Assembly: GCA_030549815.1 (NCBI GenBank)
Contig: JAUQQQ010000001.1
Location: 135,846-199,845 of the forward strand
Length of the DNA stretch: 64,000 bases
Direction: 5' to 3'
Source of the DNA: a bacterium
GTDB lineage: Bacteria; DRYD01
Position 1 is the first letter of the stretch. Every line of letters starts with the position of its first letter. A program made the position numbers and the translations under genes. Below, in pieces: positions 26,147 through 64,000 of the stretch. Below the pieces are notes generated by a model that was not told the DNA's origin, did no database searches, and saw only the letters and a list, made by a program, of their open reading frames with translations.

Positions 26147-26281
26147 GGGATTGTAATGCCTCGGTCGATTAGTACCGGTCACCTTCACCCATTTCTGAGC
26201 TTCCAGCTCCGGCCTATATACCGGGTATTCTACCCGGGACCTTACCCGCTTGGCGCGGTGGGAGACCTTATCTTGGGGTGT

Positions 26282-26312
<31 letters not shown>

Positions 26313-26537
26313 ACGTCCGCACATGGCTACCCGGCGCTGCTAACGGCTTAACAGCCGGTACACCAGCGGTGCGTTCGCTCCGGTCCTCTCGTACTAGGAG
26401 CGACTCCCCTCAAGTCTCCTGCGGCAGCAGCAGATAGGGACCGAGCTGTCTCACGACGCTCTGAACCCAGCTCACGTACCGCTTTAACGGGCGAGCAGCC
26501 CGACCCTTGGGACCTTCTCCAGCCCCAGGATGCGATG

Positions 26538-27366
26538 CACGTTTCTCCATCGTTTCCGATGGCGCAGACTATATCATCACCCTGATTTTTCCAGGGGTCC
26601 GGCGTTTTGACTTACCTTTTGGTAAGTCCTTCGGCTACGCGCCTCCAGTCGTTACAGGGTCAAAGGAGTTTATATTTCATTACCGGAGGTACATAGTGAC
26701 GAATAAGATCACAAAAATAATTTGCTTCCTTAGCTGGTATATAAATCACCCACTGCAACTTGCAAACTCTATGAATTCTACTTTTAATACCAAAATTACT
26801 TTTTAACACCTCCGATAATTGCTCAACTTCTTTTAGATTGAATGATTGGGTATTTAATCTCAATGCTTTGCAATCTTTACGAAGATGTCCATCATCCATA
26901 TACCATATTGCTAAAGCTAATACATTAACCAATATGTTTTTGATATTTGGAGGTACCCTTTTTTTGTTGTTCACATAGAAAGCTTCTGCATACCAACTCA
27001 ATTCAGATAAAGTTTTAGTATCCAGCCTTATGTGTTCATAGTATTTATGTGTGCGCTTGTCCCAGACTTTTACTGCTTTTGGAAATCCATTAACTATTGG
27101 CTGCAGCAATTTATACTTCCATTCTACATATTCCCTAACTTTAAATTGGTGATCAATACGCATACGCCATCCTCGGCCATTGCGTTCCAAACAACCGTCA
27201 CCAAGAAGGCTACCAATAATGACAGAATGAATTGGTTCTGGTAACATTTTTAACTCCTTTGACTTCCCACGGGATTACCCTCGATCCTGGGATTTCCAGT
27301 CGTTAGGGCTCCCCCGTTATAAGCCGGATGTACCTACAGGGTTACCCCTGTAGAGGCCCAAATCTG
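26538..27366 (-). other. Group I intron at about E. coli 23S position 2511
   Basis: The minus-strand exon ...GATGTCGGCT is interrupted and resumes as CATCGCATCCTGG; joined they restore the conserved 23S sequence. The intron is 829 bases and ends in G before the 3' exon, as group I introns do. The last exon bases GGCT can pair with GGCC a few bases into the intron, with the required U-G wobble at the splice site (P1). A P7-type element GATATAGTC lies at 26564-26578. The endonuclease frame occupies 26660-27247. Position numbering is from memory of the E. coli sequence. Confidence 0.9.
26660..27247 (-). CDS. LAGLIDADG homing endonuclease in the ~L2511 intron
   Basis: A 195-residue protein with two LAGLIDADG-type motifs: IIGSLLGDG at about residue 10 and LAIWYMDDG near residue 113. 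The acidic residues of both are kept, so one polypeptide can form the full active site and act as a monomer. Such enzymes cut intronless 23S alleles at the insertion site and so spread the intron. It resembles the enzyme in the neighbouring L2449 intron. The frame is intact. The GC content falls back to the genomic average inside the frame. Confidence 0.88.
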   Translation of the reverse strand: MLPEPIHSVIIGSLLGDGCLERNGRGWRMRIDHQFKVREYVEWKYKLLQPIVNGFPKAVKVWDKRTHKYYEHIRLDTKTLSELSWYAEAFYVNNKKRVPPNIKNILVNVLALAIWYMDDGHLRKDCKALRLNTQSFNLKEVEQLSEVLKSNFGIKSRIHRVCKLQWVIYIPAKEANYFCDLIRHYVPPVMKYKLL

Positions 27367-27428
27367 AGCCGACATCGAGGTGCCGAACGGCGCCGTCGAT
27401 ATGAACTCTTGGGCGCCACAAGCCTGTT

Positions 27429-28269
27429 CACCTTTATCTCAGGTTTCCCTGAGGGTAGACTATATCTTCATCCCTGCTAACCTATTAGCAAGGAGCGCGG
27501 CGTTTTGACTTACCTTTTGGTAAGTCCTTCGGCTACACGCCTCCAGTCGTTACAGGGCCAAAGGAGATTTTATATCTTATACTCTCTATAACATAATCTC
27601 TTATTATTTCTATCAACTTATCTCTTTCTTTACTACAAAATACTAACACCGGATATCCTTTTTTAAACCTGTTTTTAGGTTTTAAATTATGTATTTCTTC
27701 TAAAGCTTTTAGCAATTTTTCTATACCTTCTTTATCATATTTTGGTAGATATATTTCGAGACATTTATTTTTGGTATCTATACTTCCATCATCCATAAAC
27801 CACACTGCTAAAACCAGTGGATGCTTTAGGATGGTTTTTACATTTTCTGGTACCACTTTTTTTCCTTCTTTATAAAACCATCTTTTATATTTACCTAATA
27901 TAGGTGATGAATGAGTTTGAAATCTATAGTAATAGTATTCTTTTTGAAATTTAGGATTAAACCTTTTTATTAACTTTGGTTTGTCTTGCGCTAAGTTTTT
28001 TAATTTTTCATATTTCCAGAAAATGTAATCTTTTTGTTTTGCTGAGTGTTCTATTTTAAGTCTTGCATTTTTTTTACCTGTTTTTTGTAAGTACGCGTCA
28101 CCTAGTAAAGTTCCCCATATGATTAATCTTTGTTCTTTAAGGATCATTATTTACACTCCTTTGGCTTCCCTCGAGATTACCCCACGCTTTTTTTCAAGCA
28201 GGAGGGCTCCCTCGATATAAGCCGCGTTCTTGTAGATTGGTTTCCCAATCTACGGGACAACTGTTAGTT
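27429..28269 (-). other. Group I intron at E. coli 23S position 2449
   Basis: The exon ...CCGGGGAT is interrupted and resumes as AACAGGCTTG, restoring GGGGATAACAGGC of the peptidyl transferase centre. The insertion is two bases before A2451. The intron is 841 bases and ends in G. P1 pairs exon GGGAT with GTCCC in the intron. The P7-type element AAGATATAGTC is at 27458-27468. A 69-base stretch (27498-27566) is nearly identical to one in the next intron (26600-26668). Position 2449 is a known insertion site in other organisms. Confidence 0.92.
27533..28147 (-). CDS. LAGLIDADG homing endonuclease in the L2449 intron
   Basis: A 204-residue two-motif LAGLIDADG protein: IIWGTLLGDAYL at about residues 8-19 and LAVWFMDDGS near residue 112. 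The second motif keeps both acidic residues; the first reads GDA rather than GDG but keeps its aspartate. It is related to the ~L2511 enzyme in layout and spacing. Expected to cleave at the 2449 site of uninterrupted 23S genes. The stop lies inside the 69-base segment shared by the two introns. Confidence 0.87.
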   Translation of the reverse strand: MILKEQRLIIWGTLLGDAYLQKTGKKNARLKIEHSAKQKDYIFWKYEKLKNLAQDKPKLIKRFNPKFQKEYYYYRFQTHSSPILGKYKRWFYKEGKKVVPENVKTILKHPLVLAVWFMDDGSIDTKNKCLEIYLPKYDKEGIEKLLKALEEIHNLKPKNRFKKGYPVLVFCSKERDKLIEIIRDYVIESIRYKISFGPVTTGGV

Positions 28270-28775
28270 ATCCCCGGAGTAACTTTTATCCGCTGAGCGA
28301 CGGCCCTTCCATGCGGTGCCGCCGGATCACTAAGCCCTGCTTTCGCAACTGCTCGAGGTGTCCCTCTCACAGTAAACCCGCCTTATGCCTTTGCACTCAA
28401 CACCCGATTTCCGACCGGGCTGAGGCGAGCTTTGGACGCCTCCATTACCTTTTAGGAGGCCACTGCCCCAGTGAAACTGCCCACCTGGCATTGTCCGCAC
28501 TTCGGCGTTAGTGTTTCCAGCTACCAAGGGTGGTATCCCAAGGGCGGCTCCGTGCCGACTGGCGTCGACACATCCCAGCCTCCCACCTATCCTGTACAAG
28601 GCAGCCAAAAACACAGTACCAGGCTACAGTAAAGCTTCACAGGGTCTTTCCGTCTAGCTGCTGCTACCCTGCATCTTCACAGGGTGTGCAATTTCACCGT
28701 GCCCCTCCCCGAGACAGAGTCCCAGTCGTTACGCCTTTCATGCAGGCCACAACTTACGTGGCAAGGAACTTCGCT

Positions 28776-29511
28776 CACTTTATCCTTAACTTTCGTTAAG
28801 GAGTGGACTATATCTTATCTTTTGCTCCCGGTCCTCTTTCTTCACCACAAAGGAGTTGTTTCTTTAACTCTATTAATTTTTCTCTTTTTTGAGTATTCAT
28901 CGAATTTACGATATCTATTATTTCAACTAAACCATCAACTGTTAAATGATCTTTTCTTTTAATTTTATTTATTACTTTTCTGAATTTTATGAAATTTACA
29001 TTTTTTATTGTTTTAAGAGGATTTTTTGTAAAGAAGTCGCATATTTTTTCTAAATGTTCCAATTTTCTTACTACATAACACCATCTATCATCATGATTTT
29101 TTTTAACGATGCCAAATCCGAAGAATTTTTTTATTGCATATAACACTTTTATATCTCTCTTATGTTGAACTATTACAAACTCTGGTAAAACCTGAAAACC
29201 ATTTTTTAGATCTTTTTTTTGATTGATTGATACATGAAAACATCCTTCTCCATCCACAAATCCGACTATCCAATCTTTTGTTAGCTTCATTTTTCCCTCC
29301 TTCGTTGGTGAAGGAGCAAAAGATATTAGCGTATAGTCTCTGAGGATCCCCTCTTTTATAAGAGGGTTTCCTGCGGGTTACCCAATCCCATCGGATTTTT
29401 ACTATTCTATAAAGAATAGTACCGTGGGCTCTTGGAGGATTTTATCCTCCCTCTGCACAAAGCAGAGACAGGGCTTTCCCGCATATAGCTAATTTCAGGC
29501 AACGATTAGTT
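28776..29511 (-). other. Group I intron at E. coli 23S position 1931
   Basis: The exon ...CCTAAGGT is interrupted and resumes as AGCGAAGTTCC, restoring the universally conserved CCTAAGGTAGCGAA. The intron is 736 bases and ends in G. P1 can pair exon AGGT with GCCT. Classic core elements are seen: CTCAGAGACTATAC (R, 29331-29344) and AAGATATAGTCC (S, 28805-28816), which pair as P7. The endonuclease frame lies between R and S, that is in the P8 region. Thermotoga 23S introns are known at the same site. Confidence 0.93.
28808..29290 (-). CDS. LAGLIDADG homing endonuclease in the L1931 intron
   Basis: A 160-residue protein with a single LAGLIDADG motif, WIVGFVDGEGCFHV, at about residues 8-21. Single-motif enzymes act as homodimers on near-palindromic sites. 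The rest (LPEFVIVQHKRD, RWCYVVRK, KNVNFIKFRKV) matches the usual core. It is related to the enzyme of the L1917 intron more than to the two-motif enzymes of the 3' introns. It is expected to cut around position 1931. Confidence 0.9.
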   Translation of the reverse strand: MKLTKDWIVGFVDGEGCFHVSINQKKDLKNGFQVLPEFVIVQHKRDIKVLYAIKKFFGFGIVKKNHDDRWCYVVRKLEHLEKICDFFTKNPLKTIKNVNFIKFRKVINKIKRKDHLTVDGLVEIIDIVNSMNTQKREKLIELKKQLLCGEERGPGAKDKI

Positions 29512-29525
29512 ACCTTAGGACCGTT

Positions 29526-30307
29526 CATTCTGTTACTTTCCCCTTTTCGGGTACTGACCATAGGTTTTTGCCTATGGCGGCTATACCTTTCGGTATAGCT
29601 CTGCACATCGCTGTGCAGATCGGACCATATCTTGTTGCAGAATTACCTCTGCAACTCCGGCGTATGGTCTCTGAGGATATATTATTCTTCCCAACTATTC
29701 AAAATTTCTTCGTCAGTATACTTACTTTTTATTTTTTTTCTCAGTTTTAGAATCTCCTTTAATTGTTCTTTGGTTAGTTTTTTAGACGAAGTTAAAATTT
29801 CTACTATTTTTTTGAATTTAGAGAAATCATTTTTTTTGGTAGCTGATAGGAAACCAAACCTATTGAAAAAAGGTATAACATTTTCTCTTATAGAGTTGAT
29901 ATTGTTTACTTCGTAATACCATACTCCGTCTTTTCTTTGTCGTAACACTCCACATTTAAGATATCTTTTCATTAATGCAAGCACTGTAGGATCTTTTTGA
30001 GATACATTAAACACTGGAGTTATTTTCCATTTATTCTTATAATCTTCGCGTGGTCTAAAGACCACCATAAAACTACCTTCTCCATCAACAAAACCTGCTA
30101 TATAATAACCTATATTGGTTGGTATTTCCTTTATTTTAAGCATAATTTAATTACTTTGGGAAGAATAATATCTTTCCTGCTGATTGTCCGCGACCTACTA
30201 TTTTTACTGCCACCTTCTTCGCCAAAACTGGCTAGTGGCGAGTAAGTAGGTATACTCGGACTTCCCAGCATATAGCCGGATTTTTTTACGTAACTACAGA
30301 CGGTTCT
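29526..30307 (-). other. Group I intron at E. coli 23S position 1917
   Basis: The exon ...CCGTAACTAT is interrupted and resumes as AACGGTCCTAAGG. The intron is 782 bases and ends in G. Its P1 is excellent: exon GTAACTAT pairs over eight bases with GTAGTTAC, ending in the U-G wobble. The R element CTCAGAGACCATACG (29661-29675) pairs with the S element AAGATATGGTCC (29622-29633). Here the endonuclease frame lies before R, probably in the P6 region, unlike the L1931 intron. Coxiella carries a group I intron at 1917. Confidence 0.93.
29682..30143 (-). CDS. LAGLIDADG homing endonuclease in the L1917 intron
   Basis: A 153-residue single-motif enzyme: YIAGFVDGEGSFMV at about residues 12-25, followed by PVFNVSQKDPTVL and WYYEVNNINSI, typical of homodimeric LAGLIDADG nucleases. 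It should cleave uninterrupted 23S genes near position 1917. The frame is intact. Relationship to the L1931 enzyme is visible in motif and layout, but the sequences differ widely. Confidence 0.9.
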   Translation of the reverse strand: MLKIKEIPTNIGYYIAGFVDGEGSFMVVFRPREDYKNKWKITPVFNVSQKDPTVLALMKRYLKCGVLRQRKDGVWYYEVNNINSIRENVIPFFNRFGFLSATKKNDFSKFKKIVEILTSSKKLTKEQLKEILKLRKKIKSKYTDEEILNSWEE

Positions 30308-31067
30308 ATAGTTACGGCCGCCGTTTACCCGGGCTTAGGATCAGACCTTCGCGGAGAGAACTCCGCTAAGCCCTCACCGTAACCTTCGGGCACCGGGCAG
30401 GCGTCAGCCCCTATACATCGCCTTACGGCTTAGCAGAAACCTGTGTTTTTGATAAACAGTCGCCAGGACCGCTTAGCTGCGACCTCTGCACTTGCGTGCA
30501 GGAGGCACCCCTTCTCCCGAAGTTACGGGGCCAATTTGCCGAGTTCCTTAGGGAGGGTTCTCACGCGCGCCTTAGCATACTCTGCCCGTCCACCAGTGTC
30601 GGTTTCCGGTACGGGCTATACTTACCATCCATTTCGGTCTTTTCTTGGACGTTAGCTTACCTAGTAGTCCCCGAAGGGACGTCCTGGTTCGGCTTGCGCC
30701 TACCCACCGAGCATACCACCTGCCCGTAAGGCTTAACTAACGCCGCAACCGAAACTTCAGCGGTAAGTATAGGGGACGGAATATTAACCGTCTGTCCATT
30801 CGGCTACCCCTTTCGGGTTGACCTTAGGTCCCGCCTAACCCAACGCCGACGAACGTTGCGTTGGAAACCTTGGACTTGCGGCGGACAGGATTCTCACCTG
30901 TCTTTACGCTACTCATGCCTGCATTCGCACTTCCACACTCTGTCACCCGAGCTTACGCTCTAAGCTTGATAGTGTGGAACGCTCCCCTACCGCTTGCAAA
31001 CCTATGTTTGCAAGCCCATAGCTTCGGCACCAGGCTTAAGCCCCGATGAATCTTCGGCGCGTTTCTC

Positions 31068-31101
<34 letters not shown>

Positions 31102-31722
31102 ATAGCTGCTTCTAAGCTAACCTCCTGGCTGTCTCCGGAGAAACACTTCCTTCTACACTTAGCCTGGATTTGGGGGCCTTAGCTGATGGTCTGGGCTCAT
31201 TCCCTCTTGACCACGGACCTTATCGCTCGCAGTCTCACTGCCCCTTCACCTTAGCGGTATTCGGAGTTTGTCGAGGTTTGGTAGGCTGTTAACCCCCTAG
31301 CCTCAACAGTGCTCTACCCCCGCTAAGTTTAAACGGGACGCTGCGCCTAGACGCATTTCGGGGAGAACCAGCTATCACGGAACGCGATTGGCTTTTCACC
31401 GCTATCCCCACCTCATCGGACGGTTTTGCAACACCGACCCGTTCGCGCCTCCCGACGGTTTTGGCCGTCGTTCACACTGAGCAGGGATAGATCGTCCCGT
31501 TTCGGGTCTGCCGCCAGCGACTATTGGCCCTATTCAGACCATTCGCTTTCGCTACGGCTCCAGGTATAACACCCCTTAGCCTTGCCACTGACGACAACTC
31601 GCAGGCTCATTAGGCAAAAGGCACGCTCTCAAGTGCTTACCATCCCGTAAGCAACTCTCGAACGGTTTGTAGGTCCGCAATTTCAGGTCCTATTTCACTC
31701 CCCTACCCGGGGTACTTTTCAG

Positions 31723-31754
<32 letters not shown>

Positions 31755-32321
31755 GCAAGGAGTATTTAGCCTTGGAGGATGGTCCCCCCAGATTCACACA
31801 GGATTCCACGTGTCCCGTGCTACTTGGGAATACTACCCAGGTTAATCTATTATTTTTCGCATACGGGGCTTTCACCCTCTATGGCAGGCCATTCCAGACC
31901 TCTTCTGCTAAATAATAGATTAAACCCGAAAGCTTGGCAGAGCTTTCCGGTAGTATCCCACGACCCCGCTACTACAACGGCTGCCACCTTTAACATAGTA
32001 ACGGTTTAGGCTTTTCCCCGTTCGCTCGCCGCTACTAAGGGAATCTCATTTTGATTTCTTTTCCTGTCCCTACTGAGATGTTTCACTTCGGGACGTTGTT
32101 TAAGCCCTAAGAAGGGCAGGTTTCCCCTTCGGAGACGCCCGGATCACAGCTTCCTTACCAGCTCCCCGAGCATTTCGGCGGTTAAGGAACCGTCCTTAAT
32201 TCTCCTTGCGCCAAGCCATCCATTACGGACCCTTACTAAATTATGATTACTTACTATTCACTTATCCCTATCTCTATTTTAATGAGGATAGCTAACAAAA
32301 TAGGTTTGATAAATTAATCCT

Positions 32322-37108: not shown

Positions 37109-37642
37109 TTATATTAATCTTCCACCTGCAGGAAAACCAAAGGAACCACTTATTGCACTAAAGTTAAAATTAAATCCACCTTGTCCAAATTGTTGTTGCC
37201 CTTGATTTTGTTGTTGTAGTAATAACATTAATAAAATGATTATTAATAAGATTATCATTTGTTGGTTTGCACCTTGTGGTTGGCAACAACCAGGATTACC
37301 AAATGCTGGAGGCATTCCACCCATAGGAGGCATCATTCCAGGCATTCCACCCATACCAGGCATTTGCGGAAATCCCATAGAAAATGGGGAACACGGATTT
37401 TGCCCCATTTGACCTAACGGATTTGATAACAATGAACCTAATAATCCTCCTAATAAACCTCCAAGTAATCCTCCAACCAAACCTCCTAACAAACCTTGCA
37501 ACAATGGGTTATTTAGTGCAAATCTATCTTGAATTCCGAACCCTGCACCTACTCCAAAACCTGCACCTATCCCAAAGCCCGCGCCTATTCCAAAGCCTCC
37601 TCCTATAAAACCTCCACCTATCGCACCTATGTTGTTAAACAT
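37109..37642 (-). CDS. Low-complexity Gly/Met/Pro/Gln-rich protein
   Basis: A 177-residue protein with no recognisable family. The order is: (1) residues 8-36, repeats of GFGIGAGF; (2) about 48-72, LLGGLLGG repeats; (3) about 85-115, Met/Pro/Gly-rich segments such as MPGMGGMPGMM; (4) a Cys pair GCCQPQ near 118; (5) a hydrophobic run IILLIIILLMLLL near 129; (6) a Gln-rich and Phe/Gly-rich tail. It has its own promoter and terminator. It could be a membrane-anchored, self-associating structural protein or coat-like protein; that is inference. Confidence 0.65.
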   Translation of the reverse strand: MFNNIGAIGGGFIGGGFGIGAGFGIGAGFGVGAGFGIQDRFALNNPLLQGLLGGLVGGLLGGLLGGLLGSLLSNPLGQMGQNPCSPFSMGFPQMPGMGGMPGMMPPMGGMPPAFGNPGCCQPQGANQQMIILLIIILLMLLLQQQNQGQQQFGQGGFNFNFSAISGSFGFPAGGRLI

Positions 37643-42694: not shown

Positions 42695-44491
42695 ATGGAA
42701 AAAAAAATAGATTCTAAAACACTTTTCAACTTTTACCTAAAATCCCAGAATAATCTTTTCATCATCCCACACGAAATATCTACCAAATTTAGCGATACTG
42801 TAAACCTATCCAACAAATTAAATACCTATTCCTCTGAAGACTATTATTCACCTTTAATAGGAACATTTAGTCAATATTTAATCCCAGATTTTGAGTATCT
42901 CTTAGCGGCAGGTTTATACTTTTCATTAGCATCAAATGGTAACGTTATTTTCGATAATAAATATTTACAAAAAATAAATGAATTAATGACCAAAAAAAAT
43001 GACCCACTAAAAGAATTCATTTTTGGACCAAATAATCAAATAATGACAAATCAACTAATCAGCAATTTCTCTACACCAATACCAACAAAAGTATTCGAAT
43101 TCTTAGGTGATAATTTTGTTGGCCAAGCAGCATGGGTAGCAAAAGCTGAACAATTACCCGACCAAAAAACATTAGTAAATCTATTCTTAGAAACTAAAAA
43201 TCTACTGACAATCATTAATAATAAACCCTTTATTGATACATTCTTGCTAAAAGAACTAAATGATTTTCTGTTGAAATTCTCTCAATCTTTTTCGAATTTT
43301 CCAGAAATAAACGAATTCGTTAATTACTTTTTGCAAAATAATTTCCTAAACAACAATATAGATAACTGGAAAAAAATCTTAGAATCAATTAGTAGTGTTT
43401 TAGCAACAATAAATGAATTCATAAAACCAATGCCCATTAACTCAAAACAAGAAGCGGATAAAACATTAAAGATGTTACATCTTCTGAATCTTTCTCAAAA
43501 AGACCCCAACAATTTTTACTTGTTCCTAATGAATAACCAAGATAATGACTTAAAGAACTTGATAGAGGAAATGGTAATGGAAGGTTACAAGCATAACGTA
43601 GATAAAAACGAGTTAATAAAAAGCATATCTCAAAATCTTTATAACACATATGTAGGAATATTATCATCATATTTAAAAAAAGCAATAAAAACAGGAGATT
43701 TAAAAAATGGGGACTGCTTCTTCTTTCTACAAATCTATTCCCTTAGCTCCATTTTATTAGATTTGATAAATCAAAATAAAATGAATACCATTGAATACAA
43801 CAATACAAAACAACAATTAAAAACTTTGTTAATAATGAAACAATACAATAATGAATTAATAAATTCACTTGATAACCCTGATAAAAATGTTGTTATTTCA
43901 ACATTAGAAGTTATACGAAGAATGGGACAAAAGGTTTCGCCATGGGTTATCCAAAAAAGCCCTGACATGCCAAAAGACAGAACATTTTGGATACGATTAA
44001 ACCTGTGGTCCAAAATATATAACTCCTTAGACAAAAATGACCCTAACTACAAACAAAATAAACAATACATGCTTAGCAAACTAAGGAATATAATTTTATC
44101 TTATCCAGATACCACAAAGTTTTCAATGTTCATCAATAATATCCAAATGAACGATAAAAATTTTGATTCATTTGCTAAGAATTTGGATACACTTTTAAAT
44201 ACCATCGCAGGATTCCCAGTAGCTACAACATACGAAAACCCAGATTTCGTTTACTCACAAATTATAAGGCTTAATTTCCTAAAAAACCAACAAGATAACA
44301 AAAACCAATTCATTAAAAATGAAATACACACCGAATTAATAACAAAGATAATGACCAGAGATAATATAACAAATCGCGTAATTTTAGATTTCAATGATTA
44401 CAAAATGAATCTAAAAAACACAAACAACATTGAAAATTCCTTATACACAGTTTTGAGCACATTTTACGGTGCCGTTACATATTACTTATAA
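42695..44491 (+). CDS. Unknown 598-residue protein
   Basis: This is a lone plus-strand gene in a minus-strand region. It is Asn- and Lys-rich, apparently all-helical, without signal peptide or membrane segments. I do not recognise any domain; segments such as LLAAGLYFSLA and FLGDNFVGQAAWVAKAEQLPD near residues 70-155 are the most conserved-looking. It has a strong GGAGGG ribosome site. Its stop is five bases from the end of the convergent acyl-ACP-reductase-like gene, with no terminator between. Confidence 0.65.
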   Translation: MEKKIDSKTLFNFYLKSQNNLFIIPHEISTKFSDTVNLSNKLNTYSSEDYYSPLIGTFSQYLIPDFEYLLAAGLYFSLASNGNVIFDNKYLQKINELMTKKNDPLKEFIFGPNNQIMTNQLISNFSTPIPTKVFEFLGDNFVGQAAWVAKAEQLPDQKTLVNLFLETKNLLTIINNKPFIDTFLLKELNDFLLKFSQSFSNFPEINEFVNYFLQNNFLNNNIDNWKKILESISSVLATINEFIKPMPINSKQEADKTLKMLHLLNLSQKDPNNFYLFLMNNQDNDLKNLIEEMVMEGYKHNVDKNELIKSISQNLYNTYVGILSSYLKKAIKTGDLKNGDCFFFLQIYSLSSILLDLINQNKMNTIEYNNTKQQLKTLLIMKQYNNELINSLDNPDKNVVISTLEVIRRMGQKVSPWVIQKSPDMPKDRTFWIRLNLWSKIYNSLDKNDPNYKQNKQYMLSKLRNIILSYPDTTKFSMFINNIQMNDKNFDSFAKNLDTLLNTIAGFPVATTYENPDFVYSQIIRLNFLKNQQDNKNQFIKNEIHTELITKIMTRDNITNRVILDFNDYKMNLKNTNNIENSLYTVLSTFYGAVTYYL

Positions 44492-44496
44492 TAGAT

Positions 44497-45543
44497 TCAT
44501 CGAGGAGTAAAATTAATTTCCCTTTTTTTCACTTTAAAACCATGCTTCTTTGCCAAAATAGAAATATCCCTTATTTTATTTTCATCAATGTTCCTGCCAA
44601 TGCTATAGTTTTCATATCTTTCCTCAGCAGTTAAGATGATAGTTTCAGCCATACATGCTAACACATTGTTTTCAGGAAAACCAATTATATCATTCCACGA
44701 TAAATCATTAAACAATTTTTTAAATATAGGTTCAGAAGGAAGTTCAATAATTCCTCCCTCTATAACTAACACATCTTTTCTTTTCTCAAATACTTCTATC
44801 GATGTATTATGAGGCATAGAAATATCGCAAACTATAGAATTAGGCTTTAAATAATCAGGAAATATTATATGGGTAGGATTAGAAGTAGCAGTTATAACTA
44901 TATCAGATTTTAAACAAGATTCTTTTATATCAGTAGATATGACTAAATTATCAGATTTGATCTCATTTTTCAAAGCCATTAATCTTGATTTATTTCGTGC
45001 CACAGCAAAGATTTTATTAAAATCTTTATATATTAGCTTAGTTATTGCTTTACCAATAGCACCAGTAGCTCCAACAATACTAACATTTAACTTTTTCTTA
45101 TTTAAATTCCTTTCAAAAATAACCATATCAAGGACTTCCAAAGAAGAAGCAACAGTATAAGAAGCACCAGATGTAAAATTAAGTATCCCGTCAAAGTTTT
45201 TAACTAAATTCATACCAGCTTTACCAACGATAGAAGTAAAAGCTCCAAGGCCAACAATTTTTGCACCAAACCTAATGGCAAGCTTACTACCCTTAATCAA
45301 CTTATTCATCGCTAATTTTTCATCTTCAAGAAACTGGTTTGAAAACAAAGGAATAACAATAAACATTCCAAAAACTTTTTCTTTCGTAGCAGTTTCTATT
45401 TCCATTTCAACCGCAACAAAAGGTTCGATAAACTTAATTACACTTTGGATAAATTCTTCGCTTTTTCCCTTAATCTGTGGAACAACACGATACAAATCTT
45501 CAAAGTTGAGCGGGTGGATAAAAAAAGCAAAAGGACCTTTCAT
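44497..45543 (-). CDS. Acyl-ACP reductase-like protein (cyanobacterial AAR family)
   Basis: A 348-residue protein that matches the layout of cyanobacterial long-chain acyl-ACP reductase: FIHPLNFEDLYRV at the start, KIVGLGAFTSIVGKAG, the GASYTVA block, the nucleotide loop GATGAIGKA near residue 165, ARNKSRL, VIEGGIIELP, and ACMAETIILTAEERYENYSIGRN with the presumed catalytic Cys in LACMAET. Known members reduce acyl-ACP to fatty aldehyde with NADPH. No aldehyde decarbonylase gene is nearby. The gene before it encodes an SRPBCC lipid-binding-type protein six bases upstream. Confidence 0.78.
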   Translation of the reverse strand: MKGPFAFFIHPLNFEDLYRVVPQIKGKSEEFIQSVIKFIEPFVAVEMEIETATKEKVFGMFIVIPLFSNQFLEDEKLAMNKLIKGSKLAIRFGAKIVGLGAFTSIVGKAGMNLVKNFDGILNFTSGASYTVASSLEVLDMVIFERNLNKKKLNVSIVGATGAIGKAITKLIYKDFNKIFAVARNKSRLMALKNEIKSDNLVISTDIKESCLKSDIVITATSNPTHIIFPDYLKPNSIVCDISMPHNTSIEVFEKRKDVLVIEGGIIELPSEPIFKKLFNDLSWNDIIGFPENNVLACMAETIILTAEERYENYSIGRNIDENKIRDISILAKKHGFKVKKREINFTPR

Positions 45544-45549
45544 AATAAA

Positions 45550-46002
45550 TTACCTACTTTCATTATATAACTTTTCAGATCTTTCTTTAATAGCTTTCAA
45601 CATAGACTGGACATTTTTCTTGACTTTAAACCTTATCGTCGGCATAATAAGATTAGCTAACATAGGAATATTAACATCAAAATCAAGATACAAACTAAGC
45701 TTAGATTTATCATTGGATAAAGAATTAACTTTCCAATATCCCTCGAATTTATCAACATCCCCCTTTATAAGTTTATATTCAACAGACAAATCCTCTGGAT
45801 TGAAAACCTCCAATTCTTCCCATTTAAACATAATACCATCTATGTTAGCTTCCCAATAGGTTTGCTGTTGATTATCCTTTTTATCCAATATTTTTATTAC
45901 TTTAACATCAGGGATAAATTCCGGGAATTTTTCAGTTTGACTTGCAACGTTATATACAACCTCGGCAGGAGCATTAATCTCAATTTCCTCTTTAACCACC
46001 AT
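45550..46002 (-). CDS. SRPBCC/START-type protein (Coq10/RatA-like)
   Basis: A 150-residue protein with the cyclase/Coq10 fold pattern: EIEINAPAEVVYNVASQTEKFPEFIPDVKVIKIL at the start, broken into INAPAEVVY and the FPEFIPD segment, then FEGYWKVN and a long C-terminal helix. Such domains bind hydrophobic ligands. It is six bases before the acyl-ACP-reductase-like gene, so both may act on the same acyl or aldehyde ligand; this is inference. Confidence 0.8.
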   Translation of the reverse strand: MVVKEEIEINAPAEVVYNVASQTEKFPEFIPDVKVIKILDKKDNQQQTYWEANIDGIMFKWEELEVFNPEDLSVEYKLIKGDVDKFEGYWKVNSLSNDKSKLSLYLDFDVNIPMLANLIMPTIRFKVKKNVQSMLKAIKERSEKLYNESR

Positions 46003-46023: not shown

Positions 46024-46653
46024 TTATAAAGTATATTTTATATTTTTTCTCTTCAATTCCTTTACAAAATTCTCAAAAAATAAGGTTATATCTGAAATAA
46101 CTTTCATTTTCACAATATAGTTTTCGGTGGATCTCTCAATTTCAAATTTACTAAGTTTCATCTGCAAATTGTCAACCAAATTTCTAACAAAAACAATATC
46201 ATCCTCTTCATTCAAAAATAAAGTAATATCAAAAGATATATATTTCCCTGTAATCTTTGATTCAAAAAATCTAAAAATATTGACAACAAAGAAAACAACC
46301 AAAGTTGATACTATTGCGTGATACATCATTCCTGTTCCTATAAGTATTCCAATAGCAGAGGCCACCCATAAAGTAGCAGCAGTAGTTAAACCAATTACTT
46401 TTAATTCACTCCTCAGTATAACTCCAGCTCCCAAAAAACCTATACCACTAACTATTTGGGCAGCGACTCTCGAATCATCAGCAGAATTAAAACCTCTGAC
46501 AGATACGAAAGTAAAAATGGCACTTCCCAAAACAACTAAACTTACTGTTTTCAACCCTGCAGGCTTATTGTGTATTTCTCTTTCAAACCCTATAATAAAC
46601 CCACATAAGACGGAAATGAGTATAATATAGAAAAAATCTAAAACATCATGCAT
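46024..46653 (-). CDS. MgtC/SapB family membrane protein
   Basis: A protein of 209 residues from the ATG at 46653 (a TTG at 46668 is in frame). Four to five hydrophobic segments and the family motifs GFEREIHNKPAGLKT, ARV-like SRVAAQIVSGIGFLGAGVILR and TTAATLWVASAIG are clear. A soluble C-terminal ACT-like domain of about 80 residues follows. MgtC relatives affect magnesium homeostasis and ATP synthase in some bacteria. It overlaps tpiA by eight bases. Confidence 0.88.
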   Translation of the reverse strand: MHDVLDFFYIILISVLCGFIIGFEREIHNKPAGLKTVSLVVLGSAIFTFVSVRGFNSADDSRVAAQIVSGIGFLGAGVILRSELKVIGLTTAATLWVASAIGILIGTGMMYHAIVSTLVVFFVVNIFRFFESKITGKYISFDITLFLNEEDDIVFVRNLVDNLQMKLSKFEIERSTENYIVKMKVISDITLFFENFVKELKRKNIKYTL

Positions 46654-47383
46654 TGATAAAATTATCAATTATTTGTATAAACCCGTCAGGTTTCCAACTT
46701 GCAGAGCCAATCAAAGCTCCATTCATAGTTGTCTCTTGTTTTATTTTTTTAACAAACTCCTTATCAACACTACCACCATAAAGCAAAGTAAGATTATCTA
46801 TATTAAAGTTGTCTTTAAAAATTTTTCTTATGAAATTTTCTGCATCAATAAGATCGGGTATTTCTATCGGCACTCCCGTACCTATGGCCCATACTGGTTC
46901 GTAAGCCACGATTAACAAATCAAACCTCTCAAAATCTTTCAAACCATTAACTATTTGATTAAATAAAACTTCCTTAGTTTTTCCTTCTTTTCTCTCCTCT
47001 AATTTTTCTCCAATACAAAAAATTATTTCCATAGAATTTTCTTGCAAGCTAAGGATCTTTTTATTTATAATATCATCATTTTCGCCAAATATGTGCCTTC
47101 TTTCTGAGTGCCCAACTATACACCCTTTGCAATTAACAGATTTTAGCATTGAAACAGTAACTTCTCCCGTAAAAGCCCCCTGCTTAACATGAGAAACATT
47201 CTGAGCAAAAACATCTACAATTCCATATGAACTCAGATAATGAACATAAACATAAGGTACAGCAGCAATTATTCTAACTTCATTTCTAACTTCATTATAT
47301 TTACTACCTATACTTTCAAACCAAATTTTGGCCTCTTCAAAAGTAAAATTAGCTTTCCAATTTGAAGCTAAAATGTACTTCAT
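46646..47383 (-). CDS. tpiA: Triosephosphate isomerase
   Basis: A 245-residue enzyme. SNWKAN (residues 7-12) holds the catalytic lysine, GHSERR the electrophilic histidine, and VAYEPVWAIGTG the catalytic glutamate. LLYGGSV marks the phosphate loop. The length is normal. It interconverts dihydroxyacetone phosphate and glyceraldehyde 3-phosphate, the latter also produced by phosphoketolase. The ATG overlaps the stop of the oxidoreductase beta subunit (TAATG). Confidence 0.96.
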   Translation of the reverse strand: MKYILASNWKANFTFEEAKIWFESIGSKYNEVRNEVRIIAAVPYVYVHYLSSYGIVDVFAQNVSHVKQGAFTGEVTVSMLKSVNCKGCIVGHSERRHIFGENDDIINKKILSLQENSMEIIFCIGEKLEERKEGKTKEVLFNQIVNGLKDFERFDLLIVAYEPVWAIGTGVPIEIPDLIDAENFIRKIFKDNFNIDNLTLLYGGSVDKEFVKKIKQETTMNGALIGSASWKPDGFIQIIDNFINA

Positions 47384-62744: not shown

Positions 62745-64000
62745 GTTTCAATCCCTTATAGGTAGACTGAAAATAAATTCGATTTCAGGTCTACTTCAAA
62801 TCTGTTCTTTGTTTCAATCCCTTATAGGTAGACTGAAAATTTGGAAAAAACATGGGCTCTCCTTTTGTAATACCAAGTTTCAATCCCTTATAGGTAGACT
62901 GAAAATCCATTAGCAGTTTTTTCTACGTGATTATAATTTTCAGTTTCAATCCCTTATAGGTAGACTGAAAATAAGCTTTAATATCTATAAATATGTGAAT
63001 AAGAACTAGTTTCAATCCCTTATAGGTAGACTGAAAATAAGAAAGTTAAAGCAGAAGAATTGGAAGGAAAGACCTGTTTCAATCCCTTATAGGTAGACTG
63101 AAAATACGAAGTAGGATTAAGGAGTGTAAGCGTAAAATATGGTTTCAATCCCTTATAGGTAGACTGAAAATTATTGAATTCATTGAAAAAGAAAAAGCAT
63201 TTATTGCGTTTCAATCCCTTATAGGTAGACTGAAAATTATCTTGTGGGTGCCAATATGGGTGTGCCTTTTGTAAGTTTCAATCCCTTATAGGTAGACTGA
63301 AAATAAAAAGACAATAAAATTATAGCCTTTGAAATACAGTAGTTTCAATCCCTTATAGGTAGACTGAAAATTAGATAACAAAACATAACAAGGGAGTAGG
63401 TTTATCCGTTTCAATCCCTTATAGGTAGACTGAAAATATGCCAAATTCTGGCATCGAATATTTGCCGATGAAAGTTTCAATCCCTTATAGGTAGACTGAA
63501 AATTTGCAGTAGAAATGGTAGATTTAGTTGAAGATTTTTAGTTTCAATCCCTTATAGGTAGACTGAAAATAAAGAAAAATGCTTTATTATCAAAAATTGG
63601 CACAAAAGTTTCAATCCCTTATAGGTAGACTGAAAATGATTATTATCGCAACCATATGCCAACAGGTATAAATGTTTCAATCCCTTATAGGTAGACTGAA
63701 AATCTGGCATCAAAAGGTAAAGAAAATTATCAAAAGATAGTTTCAATCCCTTATAGGTAGACTGAAAATTCCAAAAAAGTCAAGCCTTTCCAGCCATCCC
63801 CTATCGGTTTCAATCCCTTATAGGTAGACTGAAAATAAAAAACCCTTCCAAGGAAAAAGGAGGTGTGTAAATAGTTTCAATCCCTTATAGGTAGACTGAA
63901 AATATTTATTGTTATTTCCAAAGAATTTGCTGAAAGAATGTTTCAATCCCTTATAGGTAGACTGAAAATATTCATCTACCTTTATCATTTTACCAACTCC
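62745..64000 (-). CRISPR. CRISPR array, 19 repeats visible, open at the window end
   Basis: A 30-base repeat starts at 62745 and recurs at 62811, 62877, 62943, 63009, 63076, 63142, 63208, 63275, 63342, 63408, 63474, 63541, 63608, 63674, 63740, 63807, 63874 and 63940. All copies look identical. On the plus strand it begins GTTTCAATCCC and ends GACTGAAAAT. Spacers are 36-37 bases. Read on the minus strand the repeat ends in ATTGAAAC, the usual 8-base crRNA 5' tag of type I and III systems, so I infer minus-strand transcription with the leader beyond 64000. It is 37 kb from the cmr operon and no cas gene flanks it here. Confidence 0.95.

Follow-up and report, generated by a model that had tools for sequence, protein, structure and literature searches.

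The reductase gene and its genomic setting

We analyzed a 64,000-nucleotide stretch of DNA (the window) on contig C3 of a 1.59-Mb assembly that is 90% complete. The nearest named relative of the source genome is Candidatus Calescibacterium (Calescamantes), which belongs to the Calescamantes/EM19 lineage from hot springs (PMC4791363). An ORF check of the window found two adjacent genes on the minus strand, each with an ATG start. One (44497..45543) encodes a 348-residue protein that we predict to be an acyl-thioester reductase with the fold of acyl-ACP reductase (AAR), based on profile, PDB match, tree, predicted structure and orthologues. The other (45550..46002), located 6 nt upstream, encodes a 150-residue SRPBCC/START-like protein, identified by profile and neighbor clustering. 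Directly upstream of the SRPBCC gene is an MgtC-family gene (46024..46668, minus strand) that is conserved in the genus only, and a triosephosphate isomerase (TIM) gene (46646..47383, minus strand) heads the series. Together these genes form a tight minus-strand run, TIM-MgtC-SRPBCC-reductase, with gaps of –23, 21 and 6 nt and the reductase at its end. The MgtC-family gene is probably co-transcribed with the SRPBCC and reductase genes, and we make no claim that it belongs to the module described below; the TIM gene is a neighbor outside the module.

Orthologues of the reductase are present in three congeners (74–77% identity) and in a sister genus (66–68% identity), indicating that the ORF is a real gene. 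It is single copy in the window's genome, and it is found in 5/5 other genomes of the family and in one further searched genome of the order. The SRPBCC gene is kept as the neighbor of the reductase within the genus; in the sister genus it lies elsewhere in the genome, away from the reductase, which there sits behind a FabZ-like gene (read from sequence), a Gfo/Idh oxidoreductase and LpxA. The FabZ-like and LpxA neighbors are an acyl-ACP context.

Elsewhere in the window, a 598-residue ORF convergent to the reductase (42695-44491, plus strand) has no Pfam or NCBIfam match, and the three congeners have a MiaB-like gene (read by eye) in its place. A repetitive, Gly/Met/Pro-rich ORF of 177 residues is present at 37109-37642 (minus strand). 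The 23S rRNA gene (26161-32246, minus strand) is split, with the LSU model aligning to 26161-28684 and again to 30138-32246. Four ORFs in the region match LAGLIDADG endonucleases (26660-27247, 27533-28147, 28808-29290 and 29682-30143), which makes the presence of several intron-like inserts likely. A CRISPR array with at least 19 CRISPR-DR2 repeats at a spacing of about 66 bases (62745-63969, plus strand) runs toward the window end.

Fold, active site and phylogeny of the reductase

The first-pass annotation of this DNA had described the reductase as AAR-like, and this likeness is real and well beyond chance. The protein scored 161 bits against the NCBIfam profile for PigE (residues 41-338) and 105.9 bits against that for AAR (TIGR04058), reaching the curated cutoff of neither (850 bits for PigE and 449.7 bits for AAR). 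In the PDB it matched 4ppm (4e-26) and 6jzq (1e-15). Its AlphaFold model (pLDDT 91.6) superimposed on AAR 6jzy, which has NADPH and stearoyl bound, with a TM score of 0.81 (E 6.6e-25); the carmabin-pathway TAD domain ranked next. Glutamyl-tRNA reductase and shikimate dehydrogenase were rejected as identities, as they matched in the Rossmann domain only.

We then compared the protein with the functional residues of S. elongatus AAR (SeAAR; PMC7089970). The catalytic Cys (C294 of SeAAR) is kept as Cys297 (codon 44653..44655, minus strand) and is a Cys in 67/67 rows compared, and the alignment places the dinucleotide loop GATGAIG at residues 158-164 (45052..45072, minus strand; SeAAR loop 162-168), so that the nucleotide loop and C-terminal Cys noted in the first pass are both confirmed. 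Three Arg residues of the NADPH phosphate pocket are also kept: Arg183 (R189 of SeAAR; codon 44995..44997), Arg187 (R193; codon 44983-44985) and Arg317 (R314; codon 44593-44595), all on the minus strand. This Arg trio around the NADPH phosphate suggests NADPH use and a reductive direction. In contrast, the ADO-docking residues R73, R79 and R118 of SeAAR and its Y247 are not kept, and K80 is kept as K81 (the residues at the R73, R79, K80 and R118 sites are D, N, K and a gap), which makes the earlier statement that nearly every AAR landmark is retained too strong. The same annotation reported no aldehyde-deformylating oxygenase (ADO), and a search for PF11266 found none in the whole 90%-complete assembly.

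In a 67-row tree, which has an arbitrary root and long branches and in which the PigE row is a partial segment from the PDB match only, the six cyanobacterial AARs are separated from the other sequences by a long branch, roughly 3 changes per column in length (100/100 support). The reductase lies inside a Calescibacterium clade (99/93), itself inside a set with members from Eremiobacterota, Armatimonadota, Chloroflexi and Deinococcota (94/97, drawn open). Placement outside the AAR clade and loss of the catalytic Cys had both been named in advance as results that would count against the AAR assignment; the tree found the former, while the Cys is retained. The protein shares 24% identity with cyanobacterial AAR. 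Given a score far below the family cutoff, a position outside the clade and the loss of most ADO-docking residues, membership in the cyanobacterial AAR family is rejected. Thus, the protein is probably an AAR-fold, Cys-based, NADPH-dependent acyl-thioester reductase, whose chemistry we infer to be AAR-like even though it is not of the cyanobacterial AAR type.

A non-cyanobacterial host is not unusual for such a protein. One genome scan returned at least 581 relatives, so the reductase family itself is common, and most of the 80 kept for analysis are from Bacillota; the family is widespread outside cyanobacteria. By profile score, the nearest characterized relatives are the thioester reductase domains (COG5322) of PigE, TamH and KecF. 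Evidence for the aminotransferase-reductase PigE is given in PMC8341465, a coupled TamA-TamH cascade converts a C12 fatty acid to the amine (PMC9594044), and KecF is a predicted parallel to PigE/TamH (PMC6498172). In these relatives the reductase is one half of a fusion with an aminotransferase, which supports a role in making fatty amines. In contrast to them, the window's reductase is a stand-alone ORF, not fused to a class-III aminotransferase; the genome does encode a class-III aminotransferase that probably belongs with PatA and PigE, as a separate protein on a different contig. There is no natural-product cluster at the locus, and the partners are SRPBCC and cl1 (see below).

Recurring partners of the reductase

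To identify genes that travel with the reductase, we clustered the neighbors at 80 reductase loci and then scored the partners with profiles. Three recurred: a class-III aminotransferase, the SRPBCC subfamily to which the window's protein belongs and a family that we call cl1. The order aminotransferase-SRPBCC-reductase-cl1, all on one strand, is found in 11/80 loci from several phyla, two further genomes (G170 and G307) have the order cl1-aminotransferase-SRPBCC-reductase, and cl1-reductase pairs are present at 43 of the 80 loci. Natural fusions join the same proteins: cl1 to the reductase in six genomes (G022, G089, G138, G192, G229 and G274), and the aminotransferase to the reductase at other loci (e.g. 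L018, L015 and L121). In a Thermus locus (L012:874-2535), a PlsY G3P acyltransferase domain (PF02660, 3.8e-29) and the reductase share one ORF of 553 residues; the reductase domain is of the same family, although its sequence is divergent (34% identity) and has the acyltransferase attached.

These partners bear on the fate of the aldehyde, for which ether lipids, wax or fatty alcohol had been suggested in the first pass. The fold and active site of the reductase permit aldehyde production, and ether lipids are common in thermophiles, so the reductase could supply aldehyde or alcohol for ether lipids, wax esters or fatty alcohols, with the aminotransferase unrelated. However, no alcohol- or ether-forming gene recurs among the clustered neighbors of the 80 loci, where the partners are the aminotransferase, SRPBCC and cl1, and the fusions go to the aminotransferase, cl1 or PlsY; bacterial ether lipids also have a separate known route, Ger/PlsA (PMC13274423). 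We therefore consider these products quite unlikely. With a PatA/PigE-type class-III aminotransferase as the partner that recurs, genome context instead favors transamination to a fatty amine.

The SRPBCC assignment made in the first pass is correct (Polyketide_cyc, 3e-17), and its pairing with the reductase extends beyond this locus, since neighbor clustering recovers it as a conserved partner of the reductase and the aminotransferase. RatA toxin was rejected as an identity for the protein (40.7 bits against the NF007999 cutoff of 258). The closest solved structure to the family profile is TTHA0849 of Thermus thermophilus (PDB 2D4R; 1.8e-29, next match 6e-9), which shares the SRPBCC/START fold. 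TTHA0849 was deposited as a hypothetical protein; a close homologue is present in the Thermus genome examined (G025), on a contig other than the one that carries the reductase. A role as a hydrophobic carrier, as guessed earlier, is plausible.

The cl1 family, of about 300 residues, has no Pfam or NCBIfam match. Its predicted structure (pLDDT 90.4) has an AAR-like fold (VIA Z 14.0, rmsd 4.2 Å over 251 residues), with glutamate dehydrogenases next at Z of about 10.6, about 3.4 lower. The alignment lacks a well-conserved Cys column (the best has Cys in 13/29 rows), so we assign no activity to cl1. An AAR fold lacking a conserved Cys, together with the fusions to the reductase, suggests that cl1 may be a partner subunit of the reductase or may catalyze a different reaction, for instance the step that follows.

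Co-occurrence and the full set in the window's genome

To quantify how closely the four proteins occur together, we searched 290 genomes sampled across bacterial families, of which 41 match the reductase profile. All 29 genomes with cl1 are among these 41, as are, with cutoffs placed at the score gap after seeing it, all 26 with an aminotransferase above 510 bits (the next genomes score 447 and 408) and all 22 with an SRPBCC protein of at least 94 bits. With kinship ignored, the hypergeometric P values are 1e-30 for cl1, 8e-27 for the aminotransferase and 4e-22 for SRPBCC, and they become 5e-20, 4e-15 and 6e-14, respectively, when genomes are collapsed by family. Some reductase-positive genomes have neither cl1 nor the aminotransferase, a point against an alkylamine role.

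The window's genome encodes all four proteins. The aminotransferase (C7:90.5-91.8 kb) adjoins genes that by eye look like PdxS and ribosomal protein L9, whereas cl1 is at C6:151.3-152.2 kb; neither is linked to the reductase, which also counts against an alkylamine role. At its C6 locus (L108:6954-9273), cl1 immediately follows a class-III aminotransferase distinct from the C7 enzyme; this may indicate an alternative pairing or an additional branch of amine formation.

The C7 aminotransferase scores 608 bits against the module profile, being itself 1 of its 13 rows, and in a tree it groups with Calescibacterium and other module enzymes, away from ArgD. This tree does not clearly separate E. 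coli PatA from the module enzymes, also a point against an alkylamine role, and among NCBIfam models those for putrescine aminotransferase and ArgD match the C7 enzyme as well as PigE does, with PatA at the top. This closeness to putrescine aminotransferase would fit an oxidative direction, in which putrescine or another diamine is converted by the PatA-like aminotransferase to an aminoaldehyde that the reductase then oxidizes to an acyl thioester. We regard this as improbable: the three Arg residues that bind phosphate suggest that NADPH is used for reduction, the characterized relatives AAR, PigE and TamH reduce, and the PlsY fusion and the FabZ/LpxA neighbors fit lipid synthesis.

A possible link to alkylamine membrane lipids

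The distribution of the reductase suggests a link to a lipid. It is present in 61/61 Deinococcota genomes sampled, from 17 genera, with one copy each, which points to a basic cell component; besides the PlsY fusion seen in the Thermus copy examined, the other copies are in similarly long ORFs, mostly of about 550–700 residues. One of the genomes with all four proteins, G025, is a Thermus: its MnSOD and L20 are nearly identical to T. thermophilus proteins in the PDB. Thermus and Meiothermus have an N-glyceroyl alkylamine as their major phospholipid, which is related to the one in Deinococcus, and such lipids have been called a chemical marker of the Deinococcus-Thermus lineage (PMC3035268). The enzymes for the third chain of this lipid "have not been identified" as of 2022 (PMC9636437). 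Moorella thermoacetica is also listed with N-glyceroyl alkylamines (PMC13274423), and we found no lipid analyses of Calescamantes in the literature.

From the sequence, fold, conserved active site, gene linkage, fusions and co-occurrence described above, we infer the substrate, product and direction of the reaction, as well as what SRPBCC and cl1 do. Cys297 of the reductase would accept an acyl group from acyl-ACP (or acyl-CoA), and reduction with NADPH would release it as an aldehyde. The unlinked PLP aminotransferase would then aminate this aldehyde to give a fatty amine, rather than an alkane, alcohol or ether, and the amine would enter an alkylamine membrane lipid as its N-linked chain. 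This lipid would most likely be of the N-glyceroyl alkylamine phosphoglycolipid type that occurs in Deinococcus-Thermus and in some Bacillota. The SRPBCC protein would probably shield or pass on the hydrophobic aldehyde or amine, and cl1 would probably be the reductase's partner or act in the following step. We consider this sequence, from acyl thioester through aldehyde to fatty amine and hence to alkylamine membrane lipids, the likeliest role, with a probability of roughly 0.6.

The step from module to lipid draws on distribution and chemistry, and the product could be a lipid other than N-glyceroyl alkylamine. More broadly, the same reductase and aminotransferase chemistry might feed the amine into an amine-containing secondary metabolite or another aminolipid, and PigE, TamH and KecF do make natural products. 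However, we saw no PKS, NRPS or pyrrole genes beside the window's reductase, and a reductase carried by every Deinococcota genome sampled argues against such a product, which we consider unlikely. Returning to alkylamine lipids, we see an even chance that the four proteins are a previously undescribed system by which bacteria generally make the fatty amine of N-glyceroyl alkylamine lipids, in use in Deinococcota, many Bacillota, Eremiobacterota, Armatimonadota and Calescamantes. Such a system would predict these lipids in phyla not yet surveyed for them.

The reductase gene alone is ordinary, and the interest of the locus is in the four-part set and its link to lipids. If the proposed route is true, it would name candidate genes for alkylamine steps whose enzymes were reported as unidentified, and these steps would be testable in the genetically tractable Thermus thermophilus. 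The set would also provide a genomic marker for alkylamine lipids, and alkylamine lipids would be predicted in uncultured hot-spring phyla.
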